Translations under genes and position numbers: made by a program
Notes under the pieces: model-generated
Seen by the model: the letters and a program-made list of their open reading frames with translations, nothing else
Told to the model about the DNA's origin: nothing
Database searches by the model: none
Shown here: positions 41,159 to 64,000 of the stretch, one piece after another
How the letters are laid out: each line of letters opens with the position of its first letter
Numbering within the stretch: position 1 is the first letter of the stretch
Source of the DNA: Alphaproteobacteria bacterium
GTDB lineage: Bacteria > Pseudomonadota > Alphaproteobacteria > Rhizobiales > Rhizobiaceae
Assembly: GCA_024280375.1 (NCBI GenBank)
Contig: JAJRQF010000035.1
Span: 124,001-188,000 of the forward strand
DNA: 64,000 nt
Reading direction: 5' to 3'

Positions 41159-41233
41159 TTGTTTGGCCTGAAGAACTCAAGTCAATTTTTTCTTCAAACA
41201 ATCAAGATCACTCAATTTTCGGAAAAAACCGTC

Positions 41234-42439
41234 ATGTCTTCAAAACCTGCGAATGAATCTGCCATATTCAATACATTTGCCCGGGCGCCAGTTTCCTTTG
41301 AGCGCGGCGAAGGTGTACGATTGTTCACTGAGCAGGGTGATGAGTATATAGATTTTGCTGCCGGTATTGCAGTGAATGCGCTTGGCCATGCCCATCCGCA
41401 TTTGGTAAAGGCATTAAACGATCAGGCATCGAAACTCTGGCATGTATCCAATCTTTATGAAATTCCGGGTCAGGAAATGCTGGCGAAAAGATTGTGTAAT
41501 GCAACATTTGCAGAAAAAGTTTTCTTTACCAATTCCGGTGCCGAGGCGCTGGAATGCTCGCTTAAAACCGCAAGGCGCTTTCATTTTAATAATGGTAACC
41601 CTGAGCGAGTGGAAATTCTTACCTTTGAAGGCGCTTTTCATGGCCGGACACTTGCGACAATTGCAGCCGGTGGACAGGAAAAATATCTCGAAGGATTTGG
41701 TGAAAAAACCCCGGGCTTCATCCAATTGCCGTTTCTGGATGAGGATGCGCTGGATGCCGCGATTAATGAAAATACCGCAGCCATATTAATTGAACCTGTG
41801 CAGGGTGAGGGCGGAATACGGCCTGTGCCCGCAAGTTTCCTTAGGCGTATACGTGAATTATGCGATGAAAACGGATTGCTCCTTATATATGACGAGATCC
41901 AAACCGGCGTTGGCCGAACCGGCAAGCTCTTCGCCTATCAATGGTCTGGTGCTGCCCCCGACATCATGGCAATTGCCAAGGGCATTGGTGGTGGATTTCC
42001 GTTGGGCGCTTGTCTTGCCACCATCGAGGCGGCTGAGGGAATGACCGTGGGCACCCATGGCACGACCTTTGGCGGCAATCCGCTTGCGGTTGCGGTCGGC
42101 AATGCGGTTTTGGATGTGGTGCTTGAAGAAGGCTTTATGGATAGGGTTCAGCAATCGGCTTTATACCTGCGTCAGCAACTGGCCGAGTTGAGCGATGCTT
42201 TTCCAGACCTGATCGAAGAAATTCGAGGTGAAGGGCTGCTTCTCGGCATCAAGTGCAAAATCCCCAATGTCAAAGTTGTTACCGCCTTTCGCGAGGCCGG
42301 GCTTTTGAGCGTCCCCGCCGGTGAAAATGTTGTTCGTTTATTGCCGCCGTTGATTGTGTCCGTTGATGATATTCGAGAGGCCGTTGAAAAAATGCAGGCG
42401 GCGATGACCAAATTGAAAAATACCGAGAAGCAGGATTAA
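41234..42439 (+). CDS. argD: Acetylornithine aminotransferase
   Basis: A 401-residue class III aminotransferase that makes N-acetylornithine from the semialdehyde in arginine synthesis (and often N-succinyl-diaminopimelate). Family blocks are [66 protein letters not shown] and [14 protein letters not shown] with the PLP lysine. The ATG at 41234 has GGAA upstream; earlier in-frame starts lack similarity. argF begins seven bases after its stop and hslO follows, the conserved rhizobial order. Confidence 0.93.
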
Positions 42440-51418: not shown

Positions 51419-52324
51419 TTAGATTGCCGCTAAGTGCCTGGCAAAGTCATTGCTGTTCATTAGCGTCTTGCAACGCTCAAACCGGCCAATCGAATAGGCC
51501 CAGAAATCCTCTGCCTGATTGCCATTTGCATGCTGGATAAGCCCCCAAAGGGTCCAAAGTAAATCACACATAGCCTTATATATGATCATTCGGCCAAACT
51601 GGGCATCTGATACCCCGCCACCGCAATAGGCCGCCATCATTTCGCGGTCTTGTGCATCGTTAAAGCCTGCTTCAACAGATAGGTCGCCTAAATCCCACAA
51701 GGGGTCGTTCATGCCAGAATATTCCCAATCGACAATCCACATATGGGAGCCGGTATCAAGAAAATTCTCGCATAAGGGGTCGCAGTGGCAGGGCGCAAGT
51801 TTTGCCGGGGCAGCATTGAGCGCATCACGCACCGGACGAGCCGCCTTCACTACGTCATGATAACCATCTGGCAGTTCAGCACCCAGTTTGGTGAGCATGG
51901 CCAGATATTCATCAATCATGGCAAAAAGCTCAAACCGGAACTGAAATTCTTTTCCGCATGTATGCAGTTTTTTAAGCGCCAAAGCGGCACGTGCGGGTGA
52001 GCCATTGGTCGAGGAAAAAAGATCCGGCGACATGGTAACTGCATCGCCAAGATGTTGCTGCAGCATCAACCCATCGCTTTCGTCGGCAAAGAGAATTTGG
52101 GATGAAACGCCGGCATCCGCTGCGATTTTCGCATTGTGAATTTCGATTCTACGGTCAATATATTCCTCGGTTCCGGCACCCGGCACCCGCAGCACGTAAT
52201 TTTCATCGCCATCGCGAATATGAAATACCAGATTTGTTAAGCCCCCAAGCCGCGATATTTCAAGGCCGGTTTTACCGCGCAATTGCGGAATTCGTTCCAA
52301 CGCAGGCTTGATTATCTTTTCCAT
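51419..52324 (-). CDS. Choline/ethanolamine-kinase-like phosphotransferase
   Basis: A 301-residue APH/ChoK-fold protein. The Brenner catalytic motif is CHCDPLCENFL (His-x-Asp-x4-Asn pattern, about 178-187) and the metal-binding VDWEYSGMNDPLWDLGD follows. The ATP-binding N-lobe has LGGLTNLVFHI and YVLRVPG. It is the last gene of the amine operon, 21 bases after the preceding dehydrogenase, which supports an alkanolamine or choline-like substrate, but the phosphorylated product is not determined. Confidence 0.84.
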   Translation of the reverse strand: MEKIIKPALERIPQLRGKTGLEISRLGGLTNLVFHIRDGDENYVLRVPGAGTEEYIDRRIEIHNAKIAADAGVSSQILFADESDGLMLQQHLGDAVTMSPDLFSSTNGSPARAALALKKLHTCGKEFQFRFELFAMIDEYLAMLTKLGAELPDGYHDVVKAARPVRDALNAAPAKLAPCHCDPLCENFLDTGSHMWIVDWEYSGMNDPLWDLGDLSVEAGFNDAQDREMMAAYCGGGVSDAQFGRMIIYKAMCDLLWTLWGLIQHANGNQAEDFWAYSIGRFERCKTLMNSNDFARHLAAI

Positions 52325-52345
52325 TTCATTCCTCCAAACTTGACC

Positions 52346-54754
52346 TTAGCAAAGTATTTTTGTGCGGGCCGTATCATAAGCGCTGCCGTCAATGCGCTTG
52401 GCCGCGTGACGTTCGCAATAGGCTTCGATTTCAAAACCCCCTGCGTCGATAATATTGGCTGGCAAATAACCGAATGCGATGCTTTGACCAACCGTATATC
52501 CAAAATTACCGCTGGTGGTCAGGCCGACCAGTTTGCCCTGGTGGTAGATCGCCTCTGACCCGTAAAGGTGAATATCCTTATCAACGACAAAGCAGCAAAG
52601 TTTGCGGGTAACACCTTCCTCCTTTTGTTTTTGCAAGGCGTCCTTGCCGATAAAATCACCCTTGCTGAGTTTTACGCAGAACCCCAGTCCGGCTTCCAGC
52701 GGCGTGTAGTCCGGGCCAATATCGGCCCCCCAGTAAAGGTATCTTTTTTCCATCCGCAAGCTGTCAATCGCCCGGTAACCGGCATCAATAATATCAAATT
52801 CTTCCCCGGCCTGCCGCAACAGTTCGTAGACATAAGCCGCATATTCGACAGGTATGTGTAATTCCCAGCCAAGTTCGCCCACATAGGTCAACCGCACCGC
52901 CAGCACCGGTGCCATGCCGATATGTATCCAGCGCGCACCCAAAAAGGCAAAGCCCTCATGGGAGACATCATCATCGCTGACTTTTTCCAATACCTTGCGA
53001 GCAAAAGGCCCACATAAATTAATCACCGCCCGTGAGGATGTAATGTCGCTTAGATGCACATTTTCGCGCGGCGCAATATTGCTTTCAATCCAGTGCCGGT
53101 CGCGCACCCCAAAGCCGCTGCCGGTAACCACATAAAAACGATCATCTGTCTCGCGAATGATGGTGAGATCGGCCTCAATACCGCCCCGCTCATTGCAAAG
53201 TTGCGTATAGGTGGCGGTTCCAGGTGCCTTGTCCACATTATTGACCGCCAGCCGTTGCAAAAACGAAGCGGCATCCTTGCCGATAATCTCAAATTTTGAA
53301 AACGAGCTTTGGTCGATCAAGGCAACTTTTTCACGGATGGCTTGATGCTCAAAACCAACGGTTTTTTCCCAGCCAATGCGTTCAAATGATGGATTGTCGA
53401 CGCGCTCCATACCCTCGCGCCAGAAGAAATTGGGCCGCTCCCAACCGGACTTTGAACCAAAGCTCGCGCCGTTTTTTGCCAATGCATTATAGAGCGGGCT
53501 ACGCCTCCTCAGTCGCGCGGTTTGCATTTCTGTTGCCGGAAAATGTACCTTGTAATATTGAGCGTAAACTTCCACCGAGCGTTGGCTCAAATAGCTGGAT
53601 GAGGCCTGATGCGGTCCAAAACGGCGCACATCAAAGGCCCAAAGGTCCATGCCGGGATCGCCCTCCAAAATCCAGTTGGCCATCACTTCGCCAGCGCCAC
53701 CGGAACCGGCAATTCCGGCGGTAAACCCACAGGCGACAAAATGATTGGGTTGCTCAGGGATTTGCCCGAGGATCGGTTCCCCATCGGCTGAAACCGGAAT
53801 GGGGCCGTTGATCATGGTTTGAATGCCCAACTCGTTTAATATTGGCAGGCGCTCGGCAGCGGGCAACAATACCTTTTCAAACCGGTCGAAATTTCCCTCA
53901 TAGAGCTCCCGGCCAAACTCAAAGGGCAGCCGTTTTTTGCCCACATGTGGGGTGCCTTCCTCCCAGCCGCCAATTACAAAGCCGCCAACTTCCGGTTTTA
54001 AATAAAACAGATTGTGCGGGTCGCGGAAGGTCGGAAGGTCGGTTGGGATATTCTGCGATTTATCGGTGACACAATATTGGTGTTCGACCACGGTCGTGGG
54101 CAAGGCAATGCCTGCTAGCTGGCTTACCTGTCCGGCCCAAAGCCCTGCGGCATTGACCAGCGTATCACATTCCACATAGCCCTTGTCGGTTTGAACGCCC
54201 TTTACCCGATTGCCCTTGATGATAATATCTTCAACCAGCACATTTTGTTCAAATTTCACCCCGCCAGCGCGCGCGCCGGCAACCAGCGCCATTGTGTAGC
54301 TATAGGGGTCAATATAGCCGTCGGTTGGAATAAAGGCCGCGCCTAATACGCCATCGGTTGACATATAGGGAAATTTTTCCTGTGCTTCTTTGGCGCTCAA
54401 CAATTCAAGCTCAAATCCAAAACTGCGCGCCGTGGTGGCGGTGCGCTTAATCTCCTGCCAGTGGTCCGGGCTGGAGGCGACGCGCAGGCTGCCCACCTGA
54501 TGCCAGCCGGTTTCCTGCCCCGTTTCCTTGGCCAGCCGCTCGCAAAGCGCAACTGAATTTTGCATCATTTTGGTGAGGTTGCGTTTTGAGCGCAATTGGC
54601 CAATCAGCCCGGCCGCATGCCATGTTGCCCCGTGGGTGACCAGCGATTTTTCTATAACCAGCACATCGCGTTCCCCGCGCTGGGCCAGATGATAAGCAAT
54701 TGAGCACCCAACCGCCCCGCCGCCGATAATGACTATTTTTGCACGATCCTGCAT
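52346..54754 (-). CDS. FAD/GcvT oxidoreductase, dimethylglycine-sarcosine dehydrogenase type (copy A)
   Basis: An 802-residue two-part enzyme. Residues 1-370 are a DAO-type flavoprotein with the dinucleotide motif GGGAVGCSIAYHL (11-23) and the GATWHAAGL segment whose His is the likely covalent-flavin residue in DMGDH relatives. A linker domain (about 375-430) precedes a tetrahydrofolate-binding GcvT aminomethyltransferase domain (about 440-800: GWELHIPVEYAAYVYELL, DAGYRAIDSLRMEKRYLYWGADIGPDYTPLEAGLGFCVKL). These enzymes oxidise N-methyl groups and pass formaldehyde to THF. The substrate may be dimethylglycine, sarcosine or a related methylamine. It starts 14 bases after its paralogue. Confidence 0.86.
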   Translation of the reverse strand: MQDRAKIVIIGGGAVGCSIAYHLAQRGERDVLVIEKSLVTHGATWHAAGLIGQLRSKRNLTKMMQNSVALCERLAKETGQETGWHQVGSLRVASSPDHWQEIKRTATTARSFGFELELLSAKEAQEKFPYMSTDGVLGAAFIPTDGYIDPYSYTMALVAGARAGGVKFEQNVLVEDIIIKGNRVKGVQTDKGYVECDTLVNAAGLWAGQVSQLAGIALPTTVVEHQYCVTDKSQNIPTDLPTFRDPHNLFYLKPEVGGFVIGGWEEGTPHVGKKRLPFEFGRELYEGNFDRFEKVLLPAAERLPILNELGIQTMINGPIPVSADGEPILGQIPEQPNHFVACGFTAGIAGSGGAGEVMANWILEGDPGMDLWAFDVRRFGPHQASSSYLSQRSVEVYAQYYKVHFPATEMQTARLRRRSPLYNALAKNGASFGSKSGWERPNFFWREGMERVDNPSFERIGWEKTVGFEHQAIREKVALIDQSSFSKFEIIGKDAASFLQRLAVNNVDKAPGTATYTQLCNERGGIEADLTIIRETDDRFYVVTGSGFGVRDRHWIESNIAPRENVHLSDITSSRAVINLCGPFARKVLEKVSDDDVSHEGFAFLGARWIHIGMAPVLAVRLTYVGELGWELHIPVEYAAYVYELLRQAGEEFDIIDAGYRAIDSLRMEKRYLYWGADIGPDYTPLEAGLGFCVKLSKGDFIGKDALQKQKEEGVTRKLCCFVVDKDIHLYGSEAIYHQGKLVGLTTSGNFGYTVGQSIAFGYLPANIIDAGGFEIEAYCERHAAKRIDGSAYDTARTKILC

Positions 54755-54768
54755 TGATATAATCCTTA

Positions 54769-57216
54769 TCAGATTTTTATCCGGCTCATGGCGGGGTCAA
54801 AAAGTGGTTTTAAATGCACTTTGCAGGCAATGCGCCGGGTTGCGACTTCCAGCTCATATTTGCCGCTCAATACATAATCGCGGTCAACGCCACTGGCATT
54901 GCGCACATAGCCAAAGCCAATATTTTGCGCCAATGTATAGCCCCAGCCGCCGCTGGAAAGCCATCCAACCCGCTCGCCATTGCGCAGAATGGTTTCGCGT
55001 CCAAGCAAAACAACGCCCGGGTCATCAATGGTGAAACAGGCAAGCAGTTTTGGCAGTGGTTTTTCCTGTCTTTCCAACAGTGCTGCACGGCCAATAAAGT
55101 CACAATTAGTTTTCAACTTAACTGCCCAGCCAAGCCCCGCTTCAAACGGCGTGTGGTCCGGGCCAATATCAGAACCCCAGGCACGATAGCCTTTTTCCAG
55201 CCGCAGCGATTCAATTGCCCTGTATCCGGCATTGGCGATGTCAAAGCGTTCGCCCGCCTGCATTAGCGCATTATAGACCGCCAGCGCATTTTCCTTATTG
55301 CCGTGTAATTCCCAACCAAGTTCGCCCACATAGGTTATGCGCAGCGCCTTGACCGTGGCCCCGGCAATGGCGATTTCATGGCATTGACCAAAGGGAAAGT
55401 TCTCGTGCGAAACATCATCTTTTGTGACCGCGCTCAGCACATCACGCGCATGTGGCCCCATCAGCGAAAGGGTGAAACCTTCATCCGTAATATCGACAAG
55501 TTTTGCATCGCAATCAGCCGGAATATTGCGCGAAATCCACGAAAAATCATGGGCGCGAAAGCCGGTTCCGGTGACGATGTAATAGAGATCATCATCCATG
55601 CGGGCGACGGTGAGATCACACTCAATACCGCCGCGTTTATTCAGCATTTGCGTATAGATAATCGAGCCGTTGGGCTTTGCAACATTATTGGCGCAAATCC
55701 ACGAAAGAGCTTTTTCAGCGTCCGACCCACGCATTTCAAATTTGGCAAAAGATGATTGATCAAACAACCCAACCCGTTCGCGGATGGCCCTGTGCTCGTC
55801 GCCCACATGGGGAAACCAGTTTTGCCGCCCGAACGAATATTCATCGACCGGTTCAACGCCCTTTGGTGCAAACCAGTTGGGCCGCTCCCATCCCATTTTT
55901 TCACCAAAGCAGGCACCCTGTTCCTTCAGTCGGTCATAAAGCTGTGACACCCGCAACGGCCGGGCCGATAAATGCTCCTCGTAGGGCCAGGGCATGGCGT
56001 AATGCTTGCCGTAGAGTTCCAGAGTTCGATCACGCACCACGGAAACATCACGCTGGTGCGGTCCAAAACGGCGAATATCCACCGGCCATAAATCGGTCGA
56101 GGATTCCCCGCCGACAATCCATTCGGCCAGCGCTTTTCCGGCGCCCCCGCCTGAGGCGATGCCAAAGGCATTAAAGCCGGCACCGACGAAAAACCCATCC
56201 ACTTCCGGCGCTTCACCTAAAATAAAGTTACCATCAGGCGTAAAGGATTCAGGCCCGTTGACCAGATCCTTGATCCCGGTTTTTTCCAATGCGGGCACCC
56301 GTTCCAGACATTGGGTAATCGCCGGTTCAAAGTGATCCCAATTGCTTTCCAGCAGCGTGAAGTTAAAGCCCTTGGGAATGCCGTCTACAGCCCAGGCAAT
56401 AGGGTTTGGTTCATAAACCCCGGCCACCAACCCGCCAACCTCTTCCTTGAAATAAATACGACGATCCGGGTCGCGAATGGTCGGCATATTACGGTCGAGA
56501 CCCTCCACCTGTTCGGTGACCATATATTGGTGCTCAACCGAAACCAGCGGCACATTCACACCGGCCATAGCGCCAATTTCGCGTGCCCATTGCCCGCCAC
56601 AATTGACCACAAATTCAGCGGAAATATCGCCATGTTCGGTTGAAATGCCGCAAGCGCGCCCGTCCTTGACCGTAACACCGGTGACCTTGCTATCCTCAAT
56701 GATTTTAACCCCGCCCTTGCGCGCACCAATGGCCAGTGCCTGGGTAATATCAGATGGATTTGCCTGCCCGTCACTGGACATATAACACCCGCCAACCACA
56801 TCCGAACCGTCCATAATGGGCCAGAGTGCCTGACATTCCTGCGGGTTGAGAATTTCCATATCAAGGCCAAAGCTGCGCGCCGTTGTTGCCTGACGTTTAT
56901 AATCGGTCAGCCGTTCGTGATTGCAGGCAAGTCGCAGACAACCGCTCATTTTCCAGCCCGTGGCCTGTCCGGTCTCTTGTTCCAGACGGTCATAAAGTTC
57001 GACCGAATATTTCAGTAATTGGGTGACATTGGCATTTGAGCGCAATTGCCCCACTAGGCCTGCCGCATGAAAGGTTGAACCGCTGGTGAGTTTGCCACTT
57101 TCGAGCAAAACCACATCGCGCCAGCCAAGTTCGGCCAGATGGTAGGCGGTGGAGCAACCAATAATGCCACCGCCGATTATGACGACGCGGGCATGGGAGG
57201 GGATATTCGTAGTCAT
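54769..57216 (-). CDS. FAD/GcvT oxidoreductase, dimethylglycine-sarcosine dehydrogenase type (copy B)
   Basis: An 815-residue paralogue of the preceding enzyme with the same three-part layout. The dinucleotide motif is GGGIIGCSTAYHLAELGW (14-31) and the flavin segment is TSGSTFHAAGLVGQL, with Phe for the Trp of copy A. The GcvT part carries GWELHGNKENALAVYNALM and GYRAIESLRLEKGYRAWGSDIGPDHTPFEAGLGWAVKL. It lies 86 bases after the transporter permease. Having two such genes together suggests successive demethylation steps or partner subunits; which methyl amine each uses is unknown. Confidence 0.86.
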   Translation of the reverse strand: MTTNIPSHARVVIIGGGIIGCSTAYHLAELGWRDVVLLESGKLTSGSTFHAAGLVGQLRSNANVTQLLKYSVELYDRLEQETGQATGWKMSGCLRLACNHERLTDYKRQATTARSFGLDMEILNPQECQALWPIMDGSDVVGGCYMSSDGQANPSDITQALAIGARKGGVKIIEDSKVTGVTVKDGRACGISTEHGDISAEFVVNCGGQWAREIGAMAGVNVPLVSVEHQYMVTEQVEGLDRNMPTIRDPDRRIYFKEEVGGLVAGVYEPNPIAWAVDGIPKGFNFTLLESNWDHFEPAITQCLERVPALEKTGIKDLVNGPESFTPDGNFILGEAPEVDGFFVGAGFNAFGIASGGGAGKALAEWIVGGESSTDLWPVDIRRFGPHQRDVSVVRDRTLELYGKHYAMPWPYEEHLSARPLRVSQLYDRLKEQGACFGEKMGWERPNWFAPKGVEPVDEYSFGRQNWFPHVGDEHRAIRERVGLFDQSSFAKFEMRGSDAEKALSWICANNVAKPNGSIIYTQMLNKRGGIECDLTVARMDDDLYYIVTGTGFRAHDFSWISRNIPADCDAKLVDITDEGFTLSLMGPHARDVLSAVTKDDVSHENFPFGQCHEIAIAGATVKALRITYVGELGWELHGNKENALAVYNALMQAGERFDIANAGYRAIESLRLEKGYRAWGSDIGPDHTPFEAGLGWAVKLKTNCDFIGRAALLERQEKPLPKLLACFTIDDPGVVLLGRETILRNGERVGWLSSGGWGYTLAQNIGFGYVRNASGVDRDYVLSGKYELEVATRRIACKVHLKPLFDPAMSRIKI

Positions 57217-57302
57217 TTAATGTCCTTCAAATATGCAATTTTTGAAATGCGCATGGGTGCGCAAAATATGTGAGTTTCTGAGTTAGGGATGGTGTGGTTC
57301 AT

Positions 57303-59315
57303 CTATCCAATCCCCAATTCGCGTTTTCTTTTATTGCTCCAGGCACCGATAAGCCGGTCGACGATGATCGCGATAAGCGAGATTGCCAGACCTGCCACAA
57401 TGCCCCGGCCAATATCCGCTTTGGTCAGCGCGATATAGACCTCTTGCCCAAGGTCGCGGGTGCCAACAAGGGCGGTGATTACCAACATGCTCAAAGCCAT
57501 CATGATGGTCTGGTTGATGCCCAGCATAATTTCCGGCAAGGCCAAAGGCATCTGCACTTTCCACAGAATTTGGCGTTTGGTGCAGCCGGTGGCAATGGCA
57601 GCCTCGATCAGGTGTGGCGGCACATTTCTAATGCCGTGATCGGTGTAACGAATGGCGGGCACCACCGCATAGGCGATAACCGCCAGCATGGCGGCAAAAT
57701 CCCCGACCCGAAAAAGCATGACCACCGGCATTAAATAAACAAAACTTGGCAGGGTTTGCAGCGTGTCGATGACAACTTGAACAATCCTGTGCAGGTTCTC
57801 ATTACGCGAAGCGGCAACGCCAATAGGAATGCCGATCATACAGGCGATTATTACCGATAAGCCGCAAAGATAGATGGTAATCATTGCCTTGGGCCAAAGG
57901 CCAACCGTTGCGATGAATATGGCGGAAAGGCCAGCAAGCAGCGCCAGTCGCCAGCCGCCAAGCCGCGCACCTGCAATAGAAACCCCAATAACCACCGCAA
58001 CCCACGGCAGGCTGAGCAAGAACCGCTTTGTCGGTATCATAATATTGAGCAGCAGGAAGTTTTTGACCGCATCAAGTTCGTCGAAAAAGTTGATATTGAT
58101 ATATTTCACCACATCGCCCCAAAAAGAGCCGGTGGAAATCTGCCATTCTTCCGGGAAAATATGAACCGCTGGAACCACAAGCCCCAGCAACCAGGAGGCA
58201 ATGGCAATGCCCGCTGCGGCCAGCAAATAGGGGTGCTTTTGAAGCAAGTTTTGCGAGGCTGGAATTTGCGCCGGTTGTGGTTGGTTGGCTAAAGCCTGGC
58301 TCAACCGGTCAAGCGCGATTGCAAGCAGGGTAATGGCAACGCCAGCCTCGATGCCTTCACCGATTTTCAACCGTCGAAGCGCATTCAGCACATCGAAGCC
58401 TAGGCCACCGGCCCCGATCATCGAGGCAATGATCACCATGTTGAGCGACAGCATAACAACCTGATTAACCCCGACCATAATAGCAGGTTTTGCCGTCGGC
58501 AATTGAACCTTCATCAATAATTGTCGCGATGAGCACCCGGCCATTTTGCCAAATTCGACGATTTCATCGGGCACTTTTTGTAAGGCCAATATGGTGATGC
58601 GCACCATTGGCGGCATGGCGTAGATGATGGTCGCGATCATTGCCGATACCGGGCCAAAGCCAAACAGGATCAACACCGGCACCAGATAGGCAAAAACCGG
58701 TACGGTCTGCATCAGATCTAATATCGGCGAAAGCGCCTGATTAAAGCGGGCGGAGCGATGCGCCTGAATGCCCAGCAGCAACCCGACAAACACGCCAAGC
58801 GGCACAGAAATTACGATGGAGGAAAGTGTGATCATGGCGCTATCCCATTGGCCAAAGATCGCCAGATACAAGAAACATGCACCCACCAACAGGGAGAGGT
58901 TGCGCCCGCCTACTTTCCAACCCATCAACATGACAATGCCAATGACCCCAACCCACGGCAGGCGCGGGAATATTTCAATCGCGCCGCTGCCCTGTCCCTT
59001 TAGGAACCCGCTGGACAGCAGGCTTTTTGCCACCCAATAGGGCTGCTCAATGATCCATGAGAAAAAGCGGGTGGCCTCGCGAAAGGTAAACAGGCCAAAA
59101 TCGAGGCTGTTCATCAGCCATTTCATCAAATCACTGATCCAGAAGCGCAAAGGCCATATCCATGCGCGCGGGTATTTAAACATCCAAGGAAAACTGTCTT
59201 TCAGCAGATAGCAAAGCAAAGTAAAGGCCAGCAGACCGGCCCATATTGCCCACCAGCGTTGTGCGGTGAGGCTGCTGCTTGCGGTACTATGTCGGGTGGC
59301 GCTCACAACATTCAA
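57303..59315 (-). CDS. ProW-type ABC permease, fused tandem duplicate
   Basis: A 670-residue membrane protein containing two complete BPD_transp_1 permease domains. The ATPase-coupling loops are near residue 257 (GKMAGCSSRQLLMKVQLPTAKP) and near 572 (AIATGCTKRQILWKVQMPLALP). Both halves end in GVNQVVMLSLNMVIIAS and GINQTIMMALSMLVITA helices. Usual ProW or OpuAB proteins have one such domain and dimerise; here a pseudodimer is one chain. The N-terminus has additional hydrophobic segments. It imports glycine betaine-type osmolytes by family. It overlaps the ATPase gene by 4 bp. Confidence 0.9.
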   Translation of the reverse strand: MNVVSATRHSTASSSLTAQRWWAIWAGLLAFTLLCYLLKDSFPWMFKYPRAWIWPLRFWISDLMKWLMNSLDFGLFTFREATRFFSWIIEQPYWVAKSLLSSGFLKGQGSGAIEIFPRLPWVGVIGIVMLMGWKVGGRNLSLLVGACFLYLAIFGQWDSAMITLSSIVISVPLGVFVGLLLGIQAHRSARFNQALSPILDLMQTVPVFAYLVPVLILFGFGPVSAMIATIIYAMPPMVRITILALQKVPDEIVEFGKMAGCSSRQLLMKVQLPTAKPAIMVGVNQVVMLSLNMVIIASMIGAGGLGFDVLNALRRLKIGEGIEAGVAITLLAIALDRLSQALANQPQPAQIPASQNLLQKHPYLLAAAGIAIASWLLGLVVPAVHIFPEEWQISTGSFWGDVVKYININFFDELDAVKNFLLLNIMIPTKRFLLSLPWVAVVIGVSIAGARLGGWRLALLAGLSAIFIATVGLWPKAMITIYLCGLSVIIACMIGIPIGVAASRNENLHRIVQVVIDTLQTLPSFVYLMPVVMLFRVGDFAAMLAVIAYAVVPAIRYTDHGIRNVPPHLIEAAIATGCTKRQILWKVQMPLALPEIMLGINQTIMMALSMLVITALVGTRDLGQEVYIALTKADIGRGIVAGLAISLIAIIVDRLIGAWSNKRKRELGIG

Positions 59316-60367
59316 TCCTGATCAAGCAGAACTGAAAGCACGGCCTGACGGGAGATTTCCCCGACGATTTCCTCGCCGTTCTTCACACAATAGGGTGTTT
59401 CGCTGTGAACAAGTTTTGCAGCCAGGTCTTCTATTTTAGTATTAACTTGAACGCTGCCAGCAAAATCTGAAGCCTTGGGCCTGGTCATAATTGCACCGGC
59501 GGTTAATACCTTGGCGCGTGGAATGCCGCTGGTAAATTCCTCCACATAACCATCCGCCGGGCGAAGCAATAATTCTTCTGCTGTGCCAATTTGAATGATC
59601 TTGCCATCCTTCATAATGGCAATGCGGTCGGCAAGCCGGATTGCCTCGTCAAAATCATGGGTTATGAATACGATTGTTTTGTGCAGCACGCTTTGCAGCC
59701 GCAGGAATTCTTCCTGCATTTCGCGGCGGATTAACGGGTCAAGGGCTGAAAATGGCTCATCCAGAAACCAGATTTCCGGTTCCACGCAGAGCGAGCGGGC
59801 AATGCCGACCCTTTGTTGCTGACCGCCTGAAAGCTCGCGCGGGAAATAGTTTTCACGCCCATTCAGCCCGACAAGTTCGATCATTTCACTGGCACGCTTT
59901 TCTCGCATTTCGCGGGATATGCCCTGAATTTCTAGCGGAAAGGCGACATTGCCCAGAACGCTTAAATGCGGCAGCAGGGCAAAGTGTTGAAACACCATGC
60001 CCATCTTGTGACGGCGATATTCAATCAGCTCTGTCTCATCGGCTTTTAGAATATCCCGGCCCTGAAAAAGCACTTCGCCCGCGGTTGGTTCAATCAACCT
60101 GGTCATGCAGCGCACAAGCGTGGATTTGCCGGAACCCGATAGCCCCATAATGACAAAAATGTCGCCCTCATAAATGTCGAGATTGGCATCGCGCACAGCA
60201 CCAATCATGCCGGATGATGCAAGTTCCTCGTCACTGGGTTGTGGGTTGTTTGCAAGAAAGGCAGAAGGTTTGTCGCCGAATATTTTCCAAACAGATTTGC
60301 AACCAAGTTTAACGGGCCGCTCATTGGGTTGCGGGGAGGCGTTCACGCATCGCTCCTGAATATTCAA
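59312..60367 (-). CDS. Glycine-betaine-type ABC transporter ATPase (ProV-like)
   Basis: A 351-residue ATPase. Walker A GLSGSGKST, Q-loop QHFALLPH, signature LSGGQQQR and Walker B IWFLDEPFSALDP are intact, and the DEAIRLADRIAIM region is typical of ProV. A C-terminal tail of about 70 residues is the size of a small CBS-like regulatory region (GAIMTRP, IEDLAAKLVHSETPYCVKNGEEIVGEISRQAVLSVLL), perhaps an osmotic sensor. It couples to the fused permease downstream. Confidence 0.92.
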   Translation of the reverse strand: MNIQERCVNASPQPNERPVKLGCKSVWKIFGDKPSAFLANNPQPSDEELASSGMIGAVRDANLDIYEGDIFVIMGLSGSGKSTLVRCMTRLIEPTAGEVLFQGRDILKADETELIEYRRHKMGMVFQHFALLPHLSVLGNVAFPLEIQGISREMREKRASEMIELVGLNGRENYFPRELSGGQQQRVGIARSLCVEPEIWFLDEPFSALDPLIRREMQEEFLRLQSVLHKTIVFITHDFDEAIRLADRIAIMKDGKIIQIGTAEELLLRPADGYVEEFTSGIPRAKVLTAGAIMTRPKASDFAGSVQVNTKIEDLAAKLVHSETPYCVKNGEEIVGEISRQAVLSVLLDQD

Positions 60368-60432
60368 GTGAATTGGTGTCGGGCCAAAACCATAATTGCA
60401 ATCTTGCCCAGCATGTTTGTCAGTTTGTGCAA

Positions 60433-60456
60433 ACGGGCCGAAACATTCCGGCCCGT
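60433..60456 (-). terminator. Strong hairpin between binding-protein and ATPase genes
   Basis: On the minus strand ACGGGCCG and CGGCCCGT form a perfect 8-bp GC stem around GAATGTTT, followed only by TTTGC. It starts 15 bases after the binding-protein stop. Such a structure usually protects or partly terminates transcripts so that the binding protein is made in excess. Confidence 0.6.
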
Positions 60457-60471
60457 ATTATTAATGCAACT

Positions 60472-61416
60472 CTATTGGATCCAGGCTTTCCAGCGCGCTT
60501 CATTCTTGCTCATCCAGCCGGCAACCACATCATCAAGTTTTTTGCCATCGAGGTCGATTGCGGCGATCATCTTGCCCATTTCATTGTTGTCGATTTTGAA
60601 ATTACGAACTGCTTTGTAAGCGCCCGGCCATTTCGCCTCACCGCCCTTCCAGCCGACTTTCTTGATCCAGCCAAAGGGCTTGCCGCAGTCATATTTCATG
60701 TCTTTGTTGATGCCCCAAGATGCATCACTATAGCATTCCGGCGTATATTCAGGAAATTCCACCCATTCGCCATCAAACTTTGCAACCGCCCAATGGGGCG
60801 CATAAACCCAAAGCAAAATAGGCGCTTTACGCTGATAGGCTGATTCAAGTTCTGCAAATAATGCAGCATCGGTTCCCGCATGAACGACTTCGAAATCAAG
60901 TCCAAGCGCTTCCGCCCGTTCATCATCAAAACCACCCCATGTAACCGGGCCGCCGAGATAACGTCCCTTGGGAGCCGTTTCCGGTACGGAAAATACTTCG
61001 GCGCATTTGTTAAGCGCTTTCCAGTCCGGCAGGCCGGGGCATTTTTCCTTCATATAACTTGGATACCACCACTCTTCCTTGGCATCCATTCCTGTCTCGC
61101 CAAGATCAACAGTCTTGCCGGTTTTCAGCGATGCATCCATCGCATCCTTGCCGGTGGTTTCCCACATTTCCATGGCAATATGCAGATCACCGGTTTCAAG
61201 CCCGGCAAATTGCGCGATGTAATCCGCCTGCACATATTCAATATTGAACCCGGCCTTTTTCAAAACTTCGCCCATAATATGAGTGGTTACATATTGGCCG
61301 GTCCAGTCGTGAATGGTCAGCTTTATCGGGTCACTTGATTGCGCCGAGGCCGACCCGGCCATTAGGCTCATCATGGCCGCAGCCACCGTCGATTTGATAA
61401 TGTTTTTGTAATTCAT
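60472..61416 (-). CDS. Glycine-betaine-type ABC transporter substrate-binding protein
   Basis: A 314-residue periplasmic OpuAC-like protein. The signal peptide (MNYKNIIKSTVAAAMMSLMAGSASA) ends near residue 25. The mature part has several Trp residues in conserved places (HDWTGQYVTTHI, EMWETTGKDAMD, EEWWYPSY, VTWGGFDDE, WVYAPHWAVAKFDGEWVEFPEY), consistent with an aromatic cage for quaternary amines. GGGAGAG precedes the start. It is the first gene of the operon reading toward 51.4 kb and has a very good promoter. Confidence 0.9.
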   Translation of the reverse strand: MNYKNIIKSTVAAAMMSLMAGSASAQSSDPIKLTIHDWTGQYVTTHIMGEVLKKAGFNIEYVQADYIAQFAGLETGDLHIAMEMWETTGKDAMDASLKTGKTVDLGETGMDAKEEWWYPSYMKEKCPGLPDWKALNKCAEVFSVPETAPKGRYLGGPVTWGGFDDERAEALGLDFEVVHAGTDAALFAELESAYQRKAPILLWVYAPHWAVAKFDGEWVEFPEYTPECYSDASWGINKDMKYDCGKPFGWIKKVGWKGGEAKWPGAYKAVRNFKIDNNEMGKMIAAIDLDGKKLDDVVAGWMSKNEARWKAWIQ

Positions 61417-61524: not shown

Positions 61525-61529
61525 GAAAA

Positions 61530-61557
61530 ACCACATAAATTGTATGAATTATGTGGT
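61530..61557. promoter_or_regulatory. Perfect palindrome in the binding-protein/DeoR divergent promoter (candidate operator)
   Basis: ACCACATAA (61530-61538) and TTATGTGGT (61549-61557) are exact inverted copies with a 10-base spacer, one helical turn apart centre to centre by about two turns. It abuts the -35 of the operon promoter and overlaps a plausible DeoR-gene promoter (TTGCAT 61511-61516, 17 bases, CATAAA 61534-61539). This fits autoregulation and control of the operon by the neighbouring regulator. Confidence 0.6.
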
Positions 61558-61609
61558 ATTTTGTGGAATATTACCCGTGAGCAAAAAATTGAAACTGGGA
61601 AATTCGAAA

Positions 61610-62368
61610 ATGTATGCAAGCCGCAGGCAGTCTGAAATCCTAAATACGGTGCAAAATCTGGGTTCCTGCTCGATTAGTGAGTTGGCCAGCTCCATTGGTG
61701 TTTCTGATGAAACCATCCGTCGTAATCTCAAGCCCTTGTCTGACCGTGGATTGGTTTTGCGGGTGCATGGCGGGGTGACCTTGCCGGATGCATTGCACGA
61801 AGCGCCATTCCAAAAGCGTATTCAGGAAAATGCCGAAGCCAAGCGGCAAATTGCTAAGGCAGTGGCCGAAGAAATCCAGGATGGCGATACGCTGATCCTT
61901 GATTGCGGCTCGACCACAACCTTTGTGGCGCGCGCATTGCGAGTGCGTAAAAACCTGATAGTGGTCACCAATTCTGCCGAAGTGGCACGCACGCTGGCAA
62001 CAAATGAAAGCAATCGCGTCTTTATGGCGGGCGGCGAATTACGGCCCGATGATACGGCATCCCTTGGTGCGTCAGCGCTGGAATTTGTGCGCCAGTTCAA
62101 GGTGCGACACGCCATTATTACCGTCGGCGGCATTACCGGCGATGGCGGGTTAATGGTTTTTCACCCCGAGGAGGCGGAATTTTCCCGGGCAATTATTGGT
62201 TGCGCGGAAAATGCAATCGTTGCCGCTGATCATTCGAAGTTTCAGGGGCAGGGGCTGGTGCGGGTATGCGATCTTTCCAGCGTTGATATGTTGGTAACAG
62301 ATTATACTATACCTAATGGTATGTTTAAAAATGTCGATTTAGGAAATCTCAGTATCAAGATTGCCTAG
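61610..62368 (+). CDS. DeoR/GlpR-family transcriptional regulator
   Basis: A 252-residue DeoR-family repressor. The N-terminal winged helix (RRQSEILNTVQNLGSCSISELASSIGVSDETIRRNLKPLSDRGLVLRVHGGV) is followed by the sugar-phosphate-type sensor domain with ILDCGSTTTFVARAL and VTNSAEVARTL. Start ATG 61610 is preceded by TGGGAAA; a GTG at 61577 would add 11 residues. The effector is not known; the family usually senses phosphorylated sugars, but its divergent position and the palindrome suggest control of the amine operon. The 3' end overlaps the convergent dehydrogenase gene by 14 bp. Confidence 0.88.
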   Translation: MYASRRQSEILNTVQNLGSCSISELASSIGVSDETIRRNLKPLSDRGLVLRVHGGVTLPDALHEAPFQKRIQENAEAKRQIAKAVAEEIQDGDTLILDCGSTTTFVARALRVRKNLIVVTNSAEVARTLATNESNRVFMAGGELRPDDTASLGASALEFVRQFKVRHAIITVGGITGDGGLMVFHPEEAEFSRAIIGCAENAIVAADHSKFQGQGLVRVCDLSSVDMLVTDYTIPNGMFKNVDLGNLSIKIA

Positions 62369-63272
62369 AGCTCTTATTCTCCAGCCCGCTCAATATAGCA
62401 TCGGCGCGCTCTGATAAATCATCATCGCCTGCAGATAGCCCCAAATCACCTATTATTTGTTGCCAGTTAGTCGTGGCTTTCGACATGGAATTATCCACAC
62501 CTAATTGTTCGACGGTCAGGGCAACCTCGCGCATTTCAGCGGCCCGGCGCGGGCCGTGCACCATCATTCGTTCCAGCATGTAACTGGCTTTTTCATGCCA
62601 GTTGAAGCCCGGATAGGTTTTCTCCAATGTGTCTAAAACGATATTCTCAACACCCGCCTTGCGGCCTGAAAGCACGCATTCGGCGATCAATGCCTCCAAA
62701 CCTTTCATCATGATGGAGCGGATCATTTTGATGGATGATGCCCGCCCAATTTCAGCGCCGATAAATTCAGCCCCCATGTCCATTTGGGTAAGAAAGGCAA
62801 GTGCAGCATTGCCATTTGGCCCGGAAACCAACAGGGGTGCCCGATGCAGCAACGGATGAACCGGGGCCATAATCGCGACATCTATGTAAATGCCACCGGC
62901 GGCGGTAATGATCCTTGATGCGGCTTTTTTGGTGTCCGGTGCGCATGAATTGCAATCAAAATAGAAGCAGTCTCTTGGGATGTGGTTGGCCGCATTTTCA
63001 GCCGCATTCAGCGCCTGATCAGCAGTTACCAGCGAAAATATACCGTCTACCCCGGTAATACATGCGCCTATATCCCCAACGCCAGAAATGTTGGACTTTG
63101 CGTAAATTTCTGTTTGTTTGGCGGCAAGATCGCTATCCAGGCTCTTAATGTCAAAGGCTGAGAATTGGCAGGAGATATTGGCTGACCAGCCTTGGTAAAA
63201 CGCCTGCGCCGCTTCGCCAAAACCGATCAGGGCAATGTTTTTAGGTCGTTTCTGGTGGATATTGTCGTTCAT
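62355..63272 (-). CDS. NAD(P)-binding dehydrogenase with DUF1932-type C-terminus
   Basis: A 305-residue protein of the 6-phosphogluconate/3-hydroxyisobutyrate dehydrogenase superfamily. The N-terminal Rossmann motif is IALIGFGEAAQAF (about 13-25); YFDCNSCAPDTKK and YIDVAIMAPVHPLLHRAPLLVSG follow, then a helical domain with IKMIRSIMMKGLEALIAECV that fits DUF1932. The substrate is unknown. The start at 63272 is decided by an ATGA overlap with the LysR gene stop, which means the two are translationally coupled. Confidence 0.82.
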   Translation of the reverse strand: MNDNIHQKRPKNIALIGFGEAAQAFYQGWSANISCQFSAFDIKSLDSDLAAKQTEIYAKSNISGVGDIGACITGVDGIFSLVTADQALNAAENAANHIPRDCFYFDCNSCAPDTKKAASRIITAAGGIYIDVAIMAPVHPLLHRAPLLVSGPNGNAALAFLTQMDMGAEFIGAEIGRASSIKMIRSIMMKGLEALIAECVLSGRKAGVENIVLDTLEKTYPGFNWHEKASYMLERMMVHGPRRAAEMREVALTVEQLGVDNSMSKATTNWQQIIGDLGLSAGDDDLSERADAILSGLENKSSRQS

Positions 63273-64000
63273 TTGTTCACAAGGTCCCCGGCCTTTTGCA
63301 GCAAGCCCAAAAACAACGATTGGTTCCGGGTCGGCACCCAGTTTTTCCGAACCGTGGTGCCGATATCTCTTGATGTTTGCCCCATATCGAATTTCAGGCA
63401 TTTAAGCAGGCCAATTTCAATCTCGTGGGCAATTTGGTGCGATGAAATGATTGTCAGCCGGTCGCTGCCAAGCAACAGGCCGCGGATCAGCACCAGCGAA
63501 CTTGCCTCGATCACATTGGATGGCTCCAACCCGTCGGACCTTGCAAACATATTATTATAGCAATCTCGAGTTGGCGTTGCCTCGCGTGGTACGATCCACG
63601 GATAGTCGGCGAGATTTTCCAGTGACAGATTTTGATTTGAAAATAGGGGATGATCGGCGCGCGCTGCAATTGCCAGCGTATCTGAAAAAAGTTTTGCCTG
63701 AACAATGTCGTCGATCGGAATTGGTTCGCGCAATGCTCCGACCAACAGGTCAATTTCGCCATGCCGAAGCCCATGCAACAAATCGCTATAGGGGCCATCA
63801 ATGACGTTTACATCAATATTAGGCTTCTGCGCCATCAGGGCATTAATGGCATGCGGCAGCACAAATGTGCGGGCCAGCGGCATGGTGCCGATAACGATGC
63901 GCCCAACTTCACGCCCACGCCAGTTTTCTATTTCTTCCAAACCCTGATCAAGCTCGCTGAATGCCAGTTTGGCACTTTTTGCCAGCAGATTGGCGGCCCG
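63269..64000 (-). CDS. LysR-family regulator, C-terminal part (cut by window edge)
   Basis: The open frame runs off the right end; 243 residues are visible. They cover the end of the linker helix (LAFSELDQGLEEIENWRGRE) and the whole effector-binding domain (GRIVIGTMPLARTFVLPHAI, GEIDLLVGALREP, DYPWIVPREATPTR). The N-terminal helix-turn-helix is outside. Being in the same operon as the dehydrogenase it probably regulates, directly upstream of it rather than divergent, is a less common layout for LysR. Confidence 0.88.
   Translation of the reverse strand, partial: RAANLLAKSAKLAFSELDQGLEEIENWRGREVGRIVIGTMPLARTFVLPHAINALMAQKPNIDVNVIDGPYSDLLHGLRHGEIDLLVGALREPIPIDDIVQAKLFSDTLAIAARADHPLFSNQNLSLENLADYPWIVPREATPTRDCYNNMFARSDGLEPSNVIEASSLVLIRGLLLGSDRLTIISSHQIAHEIEIGLLKCLKFDMGQTSRDIGTTVRKNWVPTRNQSLFLGLLQKAGDLVNK

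Follow-up and report, generated by a model that had tools for sequence, protein, structure and literature searches.

Why should a bacterial operon join an amine importer and two demethylase-like dehydrogenases to a choline-kinase-like protein? The question is raised by six minus-strand genes at 51419-61416 of a 64,000-nucleotide stretch of Rhizobiaceae DNA (the window; contig JAJRQF010000035.1, positions 124,001 to 188,000), which a preliminary description had read as an operon for amine uptake and demethylation outside the standard choline-to-glycine route. We found all six open reading frames (ORFs) at the place and on the strand it gave, with intergenic distances, from the end of the binding-protein gene SBP to the end of the kinase gene KIN, of 104 bp, a 4-bp overlap, 86 bp, 14 bp and 21 bp, within the maximum of 104 bp that had been described. 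The genes are as follows.

60472-61416, minus strand: SBP, OpuAC-family periplasmic binding protein (Pfam/NCBIfam), nearest solved relative TmoX (4XZ6)
59312-60367, minus strand: ABC ATPase of the betaine/proline/choline (ProV) family (TIGR01186, 342.7 bits, cut-off 326.6)
57303-59315, minus strand: fused double permease with two BPD_transp_1 / ChoW-like halves (Pfam/NCBIfam)
54769-57216, minus strand: FAD1, dimethylglycine dehydrogenase (DMGDH)-type FAD/GcvT dehydrogenase, of the clade paired with a second choline-kinase-like family, KIN2 (domains, tree, catalytic positions kept)
52346-54754, minus strand: FAD2, DMGDH-type FAD/GcvT dehydrogenase, of a separate clade paired with KIN (domains, tree, catalytic positions kept)
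51419-52324, minus strand: KIN, choline-kinase-like kinase keeping the choline pocket of LicA (Choline_kinase/APH matches, alignment)

The Pfam and NCBIfam families matched (OpuAC; ABC_tran/proV; BPD_transp_1 twice; DAO-FAO_M-GCV_T-GCV_T_C twice; Choline_kinase/APH) agree with the description's ABC importer with a fused double permease, two FAD/GcvT enzymes and a choline-kinase-like protein. It had also noted the lack of a betaine demethylase and of choline oxidase, and choline oxidase, Rieske and betaine-homocysteine methyltransferase (BHMT) families are indeed absent among the matches of the six proteins, as is any MttB-family corrinoid methyltransferase.

We propose that the operon is probably a catabolic module for N-methylated ethanolamine, that is dimethylethanolamine (DMAE) and/or monomethylethanolamine (MMAE), perhaps also choline, acting via phosphate esters. 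From the protein families, conserved residues, gene pairing, neighbourhoods and promoter motif described below we infer this substrate, a phosphorylation-first order, the product, and the action and ligand of a DeoR regulator. The binding protein and ABC importer would bring in the N-methylated ethanolamine, and KIN, together with a KIN2 encoded on contig C7, would phosphorylate its hydroxyl, so that the phosphate supplies an acidic group comparable to the carboxylate in dimethylglycine or sarcosine. The flavin of a FAD/GcvT enzyme would then oxidise an N-methyl group to an iminium, and its GcvT domain would pass the one-carbon unit to tetrahydrofolate (THF), giving 5,10-methylene-THF; removal of the methyl groups one by one would leave ethanolamine phosphate. 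In relatives, HisN-like or HAD phosphatases would probably free ethanolamine from it for degradation, or an ethanolamine-phosphate phospho-lyase would cleave it.

Pairing of kinases with dehydrogenases

The combination of one kinase with two dehydrogenases, to which the preliminary description had drawn attention, is true of the window and appears to be a derived state. Among 297 genomes of the same order (E-value cut-offs ≤1e-40 for KIN, 1e-295 for FAD1, 1e-50 for KIN2 and 1e-250 for FAD2), FAD1 was found in 90 and KIN2 in 95, with both present in 88, and the two genes lie no more than 400 bp apart in 73 of these 88. FAD2 (28/297) and KIN (40/297) occur together in 27 genomes, and in 24 of the 27 they are likewise within 400 bp of each other. 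Each of the two dehydrogenases has a kinase partner of its own, KIN2 for FAD1 and KIN for FAD2. The co-occurrence p-values, for this pairing as for the phospho-lyases discussed below, ignore shared ancestry; more weight attaches to the fact that the genes are physical neighbours in many families. SBP orthologues, counted in 65 of 70 matching genomes (G004, G018, G129, G208 and G233 were dropped, their matches being below 50% identity only), are accompanied by KIN2 in 63 and by FAD1 in 61.

Operon genes were placed in the neighbourhoods of relatives by tblastn. Chance does not explain the arrangement: other families of the order have the same gene order and a divergent DeoR gene, with protein identities of roughly 50-80%, and the operon is also present in named records from Rhizobiaceae and Roseobacteraceae, not always as one unbroken run. 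Three surveyed loci (L049, L056, L106) and Rhizobium rosettiformans have the complete arrangement, with DeoR facing SBP-ATPase-permease-KIN2-FAD1-FAD2-KIN, and elsewhere FAD2-KIN forms a separate unit, several with their own DeoR (L050, L053, Ruegeria AD91A, Salipiger). The window operon is without KIN2, which normally sits between the permease and FAD1. The KIN2 of the window genome, on contig C7, is 47% identical to the L049 protein and adjoins an apparently unrelated 705-aa ORF. Since relatives carry KIN2 in place, the window layout is, on this sequence comparison, an incomplete, derived version of a two-pair kinase/dehydrogenase system.

We consider the evidence evenly poised on a broader proposal, namely that this is an undescribed aerobic pathway of phospho-amino-alcohol N-demethylation, in which two kinase/flavin-folate dehydrogenase pairs would take N-methylated ethanolamines stepwise, as phosphate esters, to ethanolamine phosphate. 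The nearest logic is that of the MthK-MthB-MthC-MthA system of Eubacterium limosum, where, in the available part of the report, a choline kinase comes first, the demethylase acts on the phosphorylated amine and the methyl group goes to THF, as proposed here; phosphorylation is said there to yield an acidic amine resembling the carboxylated amines usual for the MttB superfamily (PMC12155760). Phosphate may replace the carboxylate of dimethylglycine here much as those authors suggest for phosphocholine. Their system differs in using a cobalamin MttB-superfamily methyltransferase in an anaerobic acetogen, in its product, phosphorylated DMAE, and, as far as that part of the report goes, in naming no FAD/GcvT enzyme. 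No characterised homologue of the operon was found among the matches listed from the open literature, subscription papers lying outside this search; judged by title, none of the matches listed concerned an operon of a choline kinase with DMGDH, and among the matches listed for demethylation of phosphorylated or free DMAE or MMAE only the E. limosum work bears on mechanism.

If the broader proposal is right, the pathway would connect amines from choline lipids with ethanolamine and with one-carbon metabolism in many Alphaproteobacteria, one variant of it lying in a microcompartment, and would assign a function to families that about one in three of the genomes sampled from the order carries (FAD1 90/297, KIN2 95/297). 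Annotations in the plasmid records are generic only ('FAD-dependent oxidoreductase', 'phosphotransferase', 'choline/ethanolamine kinase family protein'). It would also explain why a FAD/GcvT demethylase has a kinase partner, would show phosphate taking the place of carboxylate in aerobic flavin/folate chemistry, and would provide a sink for phospholipid-derived dimethyl- and monomethylethanolamine in soil and sea as well as a possible context for structure 3DXQ.

The kinase pocket and the possible fate of the product

The choline pocket of LicA from Streptococcus pneumoniae consists, in the available portion of PMC4364537, of T29, D176, V178, Y197, E213, W251, W254 and Y268, and the corresponding residues of KIN are T30, D182, L184, Y202, E218, W257, W260 and Y277. 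Identical sequences were removed from the pocket alignments and cut-offs set on identity and length. Across 54 KIN sequences, which include the window's own and one with an internal stop, LicA T29, D176, N181, D194, E196, Y197, E213, W251, W254 and Y268 are kept in 54/54, and at the V178 place 53 have L and one has M. By these positions, KIN has the catalytic residues and choline cage of a LicA-type choline kinase, its predicted activity, with V178 to L as the one change in the pocket; LicA serves cell-wall phosphorylcholine, whereas KIN stands in a predicted catabolic operon. KIN scores 379 bits against 3DXQ of Mesorhizobium loti, a structure that carries a family-level name, and 126 bits against LicA. 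The nearest named relatives found were from Rhizobiaceae metagenome-assembled genomes (L039, 93%; L040, 78%).

What becomes of the product is suggested by genes that adjoin the module in relatives. On plasmid pPABY1 of Salipiger abyssi, an island starts with a HisN-like phosphatase gene and a DeoR gene facing SBP-ATPase-permease-KIN2-FAD1, continues with ETF beta, an FAD-binding protein (ETF alpha-like), FolD, PurU, FGase, a glutamine synthetase (GS) family protein, ALDH, FeADH, GlyA, serine ammonia-lyase and HAD, and then holds a second SBP-ATPase-permease with a trimethylamine N-oxide (TMAO)-demethylase-like protein, followed by DeoR facing FAD2-KIN. ETF, FolD, PurU, GlyA and serine ammonia-lyase fit an output of methylene-THF. 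By family, FGase, the GS-like protein, ALDH and FeADH could fill the roles of a gamma-glutamyl-ethanolamide route, with the GS-like protein as the putative glutamylase. In the accessible text of PMC10132767, the ethanolamine gamma-glutamylation genes of Phaeobacter MED193 comprise RpiR, a gamma-glutamylglycine amidohydrolase, an ethanolamine gamma-glutamylase and two dehydrogenases; that route begins at free ethanolamine and, in the same text, includes no step on a methylated ethanolamine and none by a choline kinase. The four families also lie directly upstream of KIN2-FAD1, on the same strand, at L127 and L128, in two genomes of one genus. In Shinella sp. HZN7 an amidohydrolase, RpiR and a GS-family gene adjoin the operon, this GS being only 30% identical to that of Salipiger. 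EutH (Pfam EutH, 415 bits) directly follows KIN2-FAD1 on the same strand in Nitratireductor sp. OM-1, where no SBP importer is adjacent, and had no match in any other surveyed locus. The second importer and TMAO-demethylase-like protein of Salipiger (the latter 1073.9 bits, cut-off 1100) occupy L174 26582-33015, about 1.7 kb from FAD2.

Two further kinds of neighbour point the same way. At L134 an EtnppL-family phospho-lyase gene (321 bits against 6TOR, 361 bits against 5G4I) and an ALDH gene are convergent with FAD1-KIN2, the ALDH end lying within about 10 bp of FAD1. Phospho-lyases were surveyed in 80 genomes (G000, G001, 39 with KIN2 and 39 without, hand-picked from random lists of 53 and 54; G224, whose contig ends at FAD1, was omitted, and G001, source of the query, was excluded from the counts), and the family was present in 19/40 genomes with KIN2 vs 3/39 without, a contrast that is weaker in genomes of at least 4 Mb (13/29 vs 2/17). 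A microcompartment locus (L081 2-9610; G079, contig C20) encodes on one strand a class III aminotransferase, an enzyme resembling acetaldehyde dehydrogenase that scores below the NCBIfam cut-offs, shell proteins like EutM and EutN, DeoR, an FAD2-type enzyme and a KIN-type kinase; we know of no described microcompartment type with a FAD/GcvT enzyme. In the window itself, a class III aminotransferase (41159-42439) was rejected as a phospho-lyase, as it directly precedes an ornithine carbamoyltransferase-like ORF and is ArgD-like (named by sequence reading).

The ethanolamine-linked neighbours suggest that the product would be ethanolamine or its phosphate, and hence that the substrate would be an N-methylated ethanolamine. 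HisN-like phosphatase genes (244 bits, HisN cut-off 275) or HAD phosphatase genes lie near the module at 17/45 loci, with further cases outside that set, and favour phosphorylation before demethylation. The preliminary description had foreseen uptake and demethylation by a non-standard route, which the pairing and the ethanolamine-type neighbours support as a prediction. It had also raised the possibility of a phosphorylated intermediate, to which the kinase pairing, the choline pocket of KIN and these phosphatases lend predictive weight, or of a different methylated amine, which we would narrow from its list of candidates to N-methylated ethanolamine.

The same neighbours bear on the order of steps. 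It is conceivable, if unlikely, that the FAD/GcvT enzymes demethylate free DMAE or MMAE and that the kinases then phosphorylate ethanolamine for a phospho-lyase or for lipid synthesis, and both the gene arrangement at L134 and the excess of phospho-lyases in genomes with KIN2 would suit that reversed order. A choline cage invariant in 54/54 KIN sequences would be odd in a kinase of unmethylated ethanolamine, however, late phosphorylation would be made futile by the phosphatases beside some modules, and the characterised relatives of the dehydrogenases, DMGDH and dimethylglycine oxidase (DMGO), act on an acidic amine.

Dehydrogenases, importer and the remaining alternatives

FAD1 and FAD2 both have the DAO, FAO_M, GCV_T and GCV_T_C architecture of DMGDH/DMGO-type enzymes, and their best solved relatives are dimethylglycine dehydrogenases/oxidase (PDB 4PAB, 5L46 and 1PJ5). 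The FAD-linking His and the equivalents of DMGO H225 and Y259, which we take to lie in the active site, and of D552 and E658, presumably of the folate domain, are invariant in 65/65 FAD1 rows and 37/37 FAD2-type rows (these represent 31 loci, with six entered twice under different ends); rat DMGDH has E at the D552 place. Alike in these positions, FAD1 and FAD2 differ from DMGDH/DMGO in forming two clades off the rat DMGDH branch, each with a kinase partner. In a 47-row tree the two clades are separate (support 99/100 for FAD1 and 100/100 for FAD2), and the sister group of FAD1 consists of paralogues, of which seven scanned neighbourhoods contain no KIN or KIN2 match. The preliminary description's tandem paralogous dehydrogenases are thus adjacent FAD/GcvT enzymes, but a recent tandem duplication was rejected, since the two fall in separate clades and FAD1 is nearer to kinase-less paralogues. 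Rat DMGDH groups with different paralogues, of which two belong to the window genome, a placement that is less sure because its end branch is long (that of DMGO is long as well); on tree placement we rejected a canonical DMGDH or sarcosine dehydrogenase identity for FAD1 and FAD2.

These results make it quite unlikely that the operon carries out ordinary catabolism of glycine betaine, dimethylglycine and sarcosine, with FAD1 and FAD2 as DMGDH and sarcosine dehydrogenase and the kinase supplying phosphocholine for lipids. The solved relatives of the dehydrogenases and a betaine/choline-family importer would be in keeping with such a route. Against it stand the tree position of rat DMGDH, long branch included, and a separate cluster on contig C110 (named by sequence reading), and it would leave the kinase pairing and the ethanolamine genes unexplained. 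That cluster (L088 6900-15109; G000) has two FAD/GcvT dehydrogenases around a BHMT-like gene and an MttB-superfamily-like protein.

Both the ATPase, as listed above, and the permease (TIGR03416, 433.7 bits, cut-off 363) belong to the ProV/ChoV families by score, and SBP, at 36.3 bits against a cut-off of 379.05 for ChoX (TIGR03414), does not complete a ChoXWV importer. The closest solved relative of SBP is TmoX (4XZ6, 273 bits), of the TmoXWV importer of Ruegeria pomeroyi and SAR11, whose TMAO pocket is given in the available part of PMC8918994 as W55, W102, F106, E131, W177, F220 and W222. Aligned to these residues, SBP has W38, W85, G89, E114, W160, W203 and Y205. W55, W102, E131 and W177 are kept in 40/40 SBP orthologues, and in the same 40/40 the other three are replaced (F106 by G or A, F220 by W, W222 by Y), so that three of the seven pocket residues set this family apart from TmoX and TMAO was rejected as its ligand; the window operon also differs in having no TMAO-demethylase gene. 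The natural reading of this pocket is a ligand that would be a methylated ammonium bigger than TMAO, with an extra group reaching the Glu. No such importer is named in the available part of an R. pomeroyi transporter screen.

A pocket probably larger than that of TmoX would also suit another hydroxylated methylated amine, such as N-methyl-1-amino-2-propanol or a different amino alcohol, handled by the same kinase-demethylase logic. The RMM, or aminoacetone-type, microcompartment combines an aminotransferase, a phosphotransferase and an aldehyde dehydrogenase with shell proteins and is thought, in the accessible text of PMC4207490, to process amino alcohols, and L081 resembles it in its enzyme kinds and shell genes; L081 differs in adding a FAD/GcvT enzyme, and the window operon has no shell genes. 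We regard a substrate of this kind as improbable, as neighbourhoods in separate lineages indicate ethanolamine itself. Least credible is import of TMAO or another N-oxide and its phosphorylation on oxygen, to which TmoX as closest solved SBP and the best NCBIfam match of KIN, the N-oxide kinase GntI (NF041256, 129.1 bits, far below the cut-off of 357 and so outside that family), might seem to lead, since F106, F220 and W222 are all replaced, Salipiger abyssi has a separate SBP-ATPase-permease unit with its TMAO-demethylase-like protein, and TMAO would not need two FAD/GcvT enzymes.

Several observations weigh against a module for N-methylated ethanolamine. None of the operon's enzymes comes from a family with known activity in demethylating quaternary amines, so that a further demethylase would have to act on choline itself. 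KIN2 keeps LicA D176, N181, D194, Y197 and W251 in 71/71 sequences; E213 is N in 68/71 and W254 is V in 63/71, and its substrate therefore probably differs in detail from that of KIN. KIN occurs without FAD2 in 13/40 KIN genomes. Three f18 genomes and L107 have the importer and kinase(s), accompanied by a methyltransferase and a HAD phosphatase, without FAD1 or FAD2 nearby, and the best FAD1 match in a whole-genome search of the three was a 41% partial one; the kinase module can therefore serve something else there. By the criterion used, no basic FAD-domain residue specific to FAD1 and FAD2 marks a phosphate site: the clades share two basic positions (382 and 666 in FAD1 numbering), both of them beyond that domain and each basic in at least one kinase-less paralogue too. 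Among loci L001-L174 the full gamma-glutamyl-ethanolamide set occurs, at the cut-off used, at only three places (Salipiger, L127 and L128), and at most of these loci the ethanolamine genes are all missing. The three phosphatase clusters are unrepresented at 28/45 loci, and the window operon has no phosphatase. The window genome has no close homologue of the HisN-like phosphatase (best 39%) or of the L081-type aminotransferase (31%), nor a phospho-lyase at the cut-off, although no search there was aimed at ethanolamine-degradation genes. The Salipiger ethanolamine gene set has no match in the window, in a comparison that covered only the window and the surveyed loci.

Regulator, promoter motif and additional genes

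Two features upstream of SBP complete the locus.

61610-62368, plus strand: DeoR/GlpR-type regulator, divergent, beside the operon in many relatives too (family matches, neighbourhoods)
61526-61561, no strand: operator-like inverted repeat ACCACATAA (61530-61538) / TTATGTGGT (61549-61557), a motif common to relatives' promoters

The intergenic regions between DeoR and the operon share the motif aAAAnCCACAaAAA, frequently with a further copy about 10 or 20 bp away, and the window copy is a perfect inverted repeat, ACCACATAA-10-TTATGTGGT. An expectation-maximisation fit, for which the 46 intergenic regions were thinned to 37, scored 192.7 vs at most 45.4 in four shuffled sets, and AAANCCACA occurs in 25/46 regions (shuffled mean 0.56, maximum 3). 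The motif stands before units led by SBP, by KIN2 and by FAD2; at L070, L107 and L110 it is weak. DeoR would repress the operon, with a phosphorylated intermediate as the probable signal; such an inducer fits, because DeoR-family regulators usually bind phosphorylated metabolites.

A hairpin, ACGGGCCG/CGGCCCGT (60433-60456), lies in the 104-bp gap between the SBP and ATPase genes and perhaps raises the level of the binding-protein mRNA. Beyond DeoR, a gene for a DUF1932 dehydrogenase-like protein and an ORF with a LysR substrate domain occupy 62355-63940; at the cut-off used, neither had a match next to the operon in the relatives L039-L084.

At L107 (9613-17570) and L045-L047, an importer, a KIN-type kinase and a HAD phosphatase stand with an S-adenosylmethionine (SAM) methyltransferase, which takes the place of nearby FAD/GcvT enzymes; these and f18-type loci possibly methylate the same phospho-amines, the reverse of demethylation, or act on another substrate. 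A small conserved SAM-methyltransferase-like protein, which we take to be METTL27-like, adjoins KIN, often on the opposite strand, at L069 (10226-10855) and 11 other loci of the 45. A pair comprising a HAD hydrolase and a class I glutamine amidotransferase adjoins the module at L058 (5512-7137), L054, L055 and L106, and a similar amidotransferase adjoins a FAD1-like paralogue in L157.

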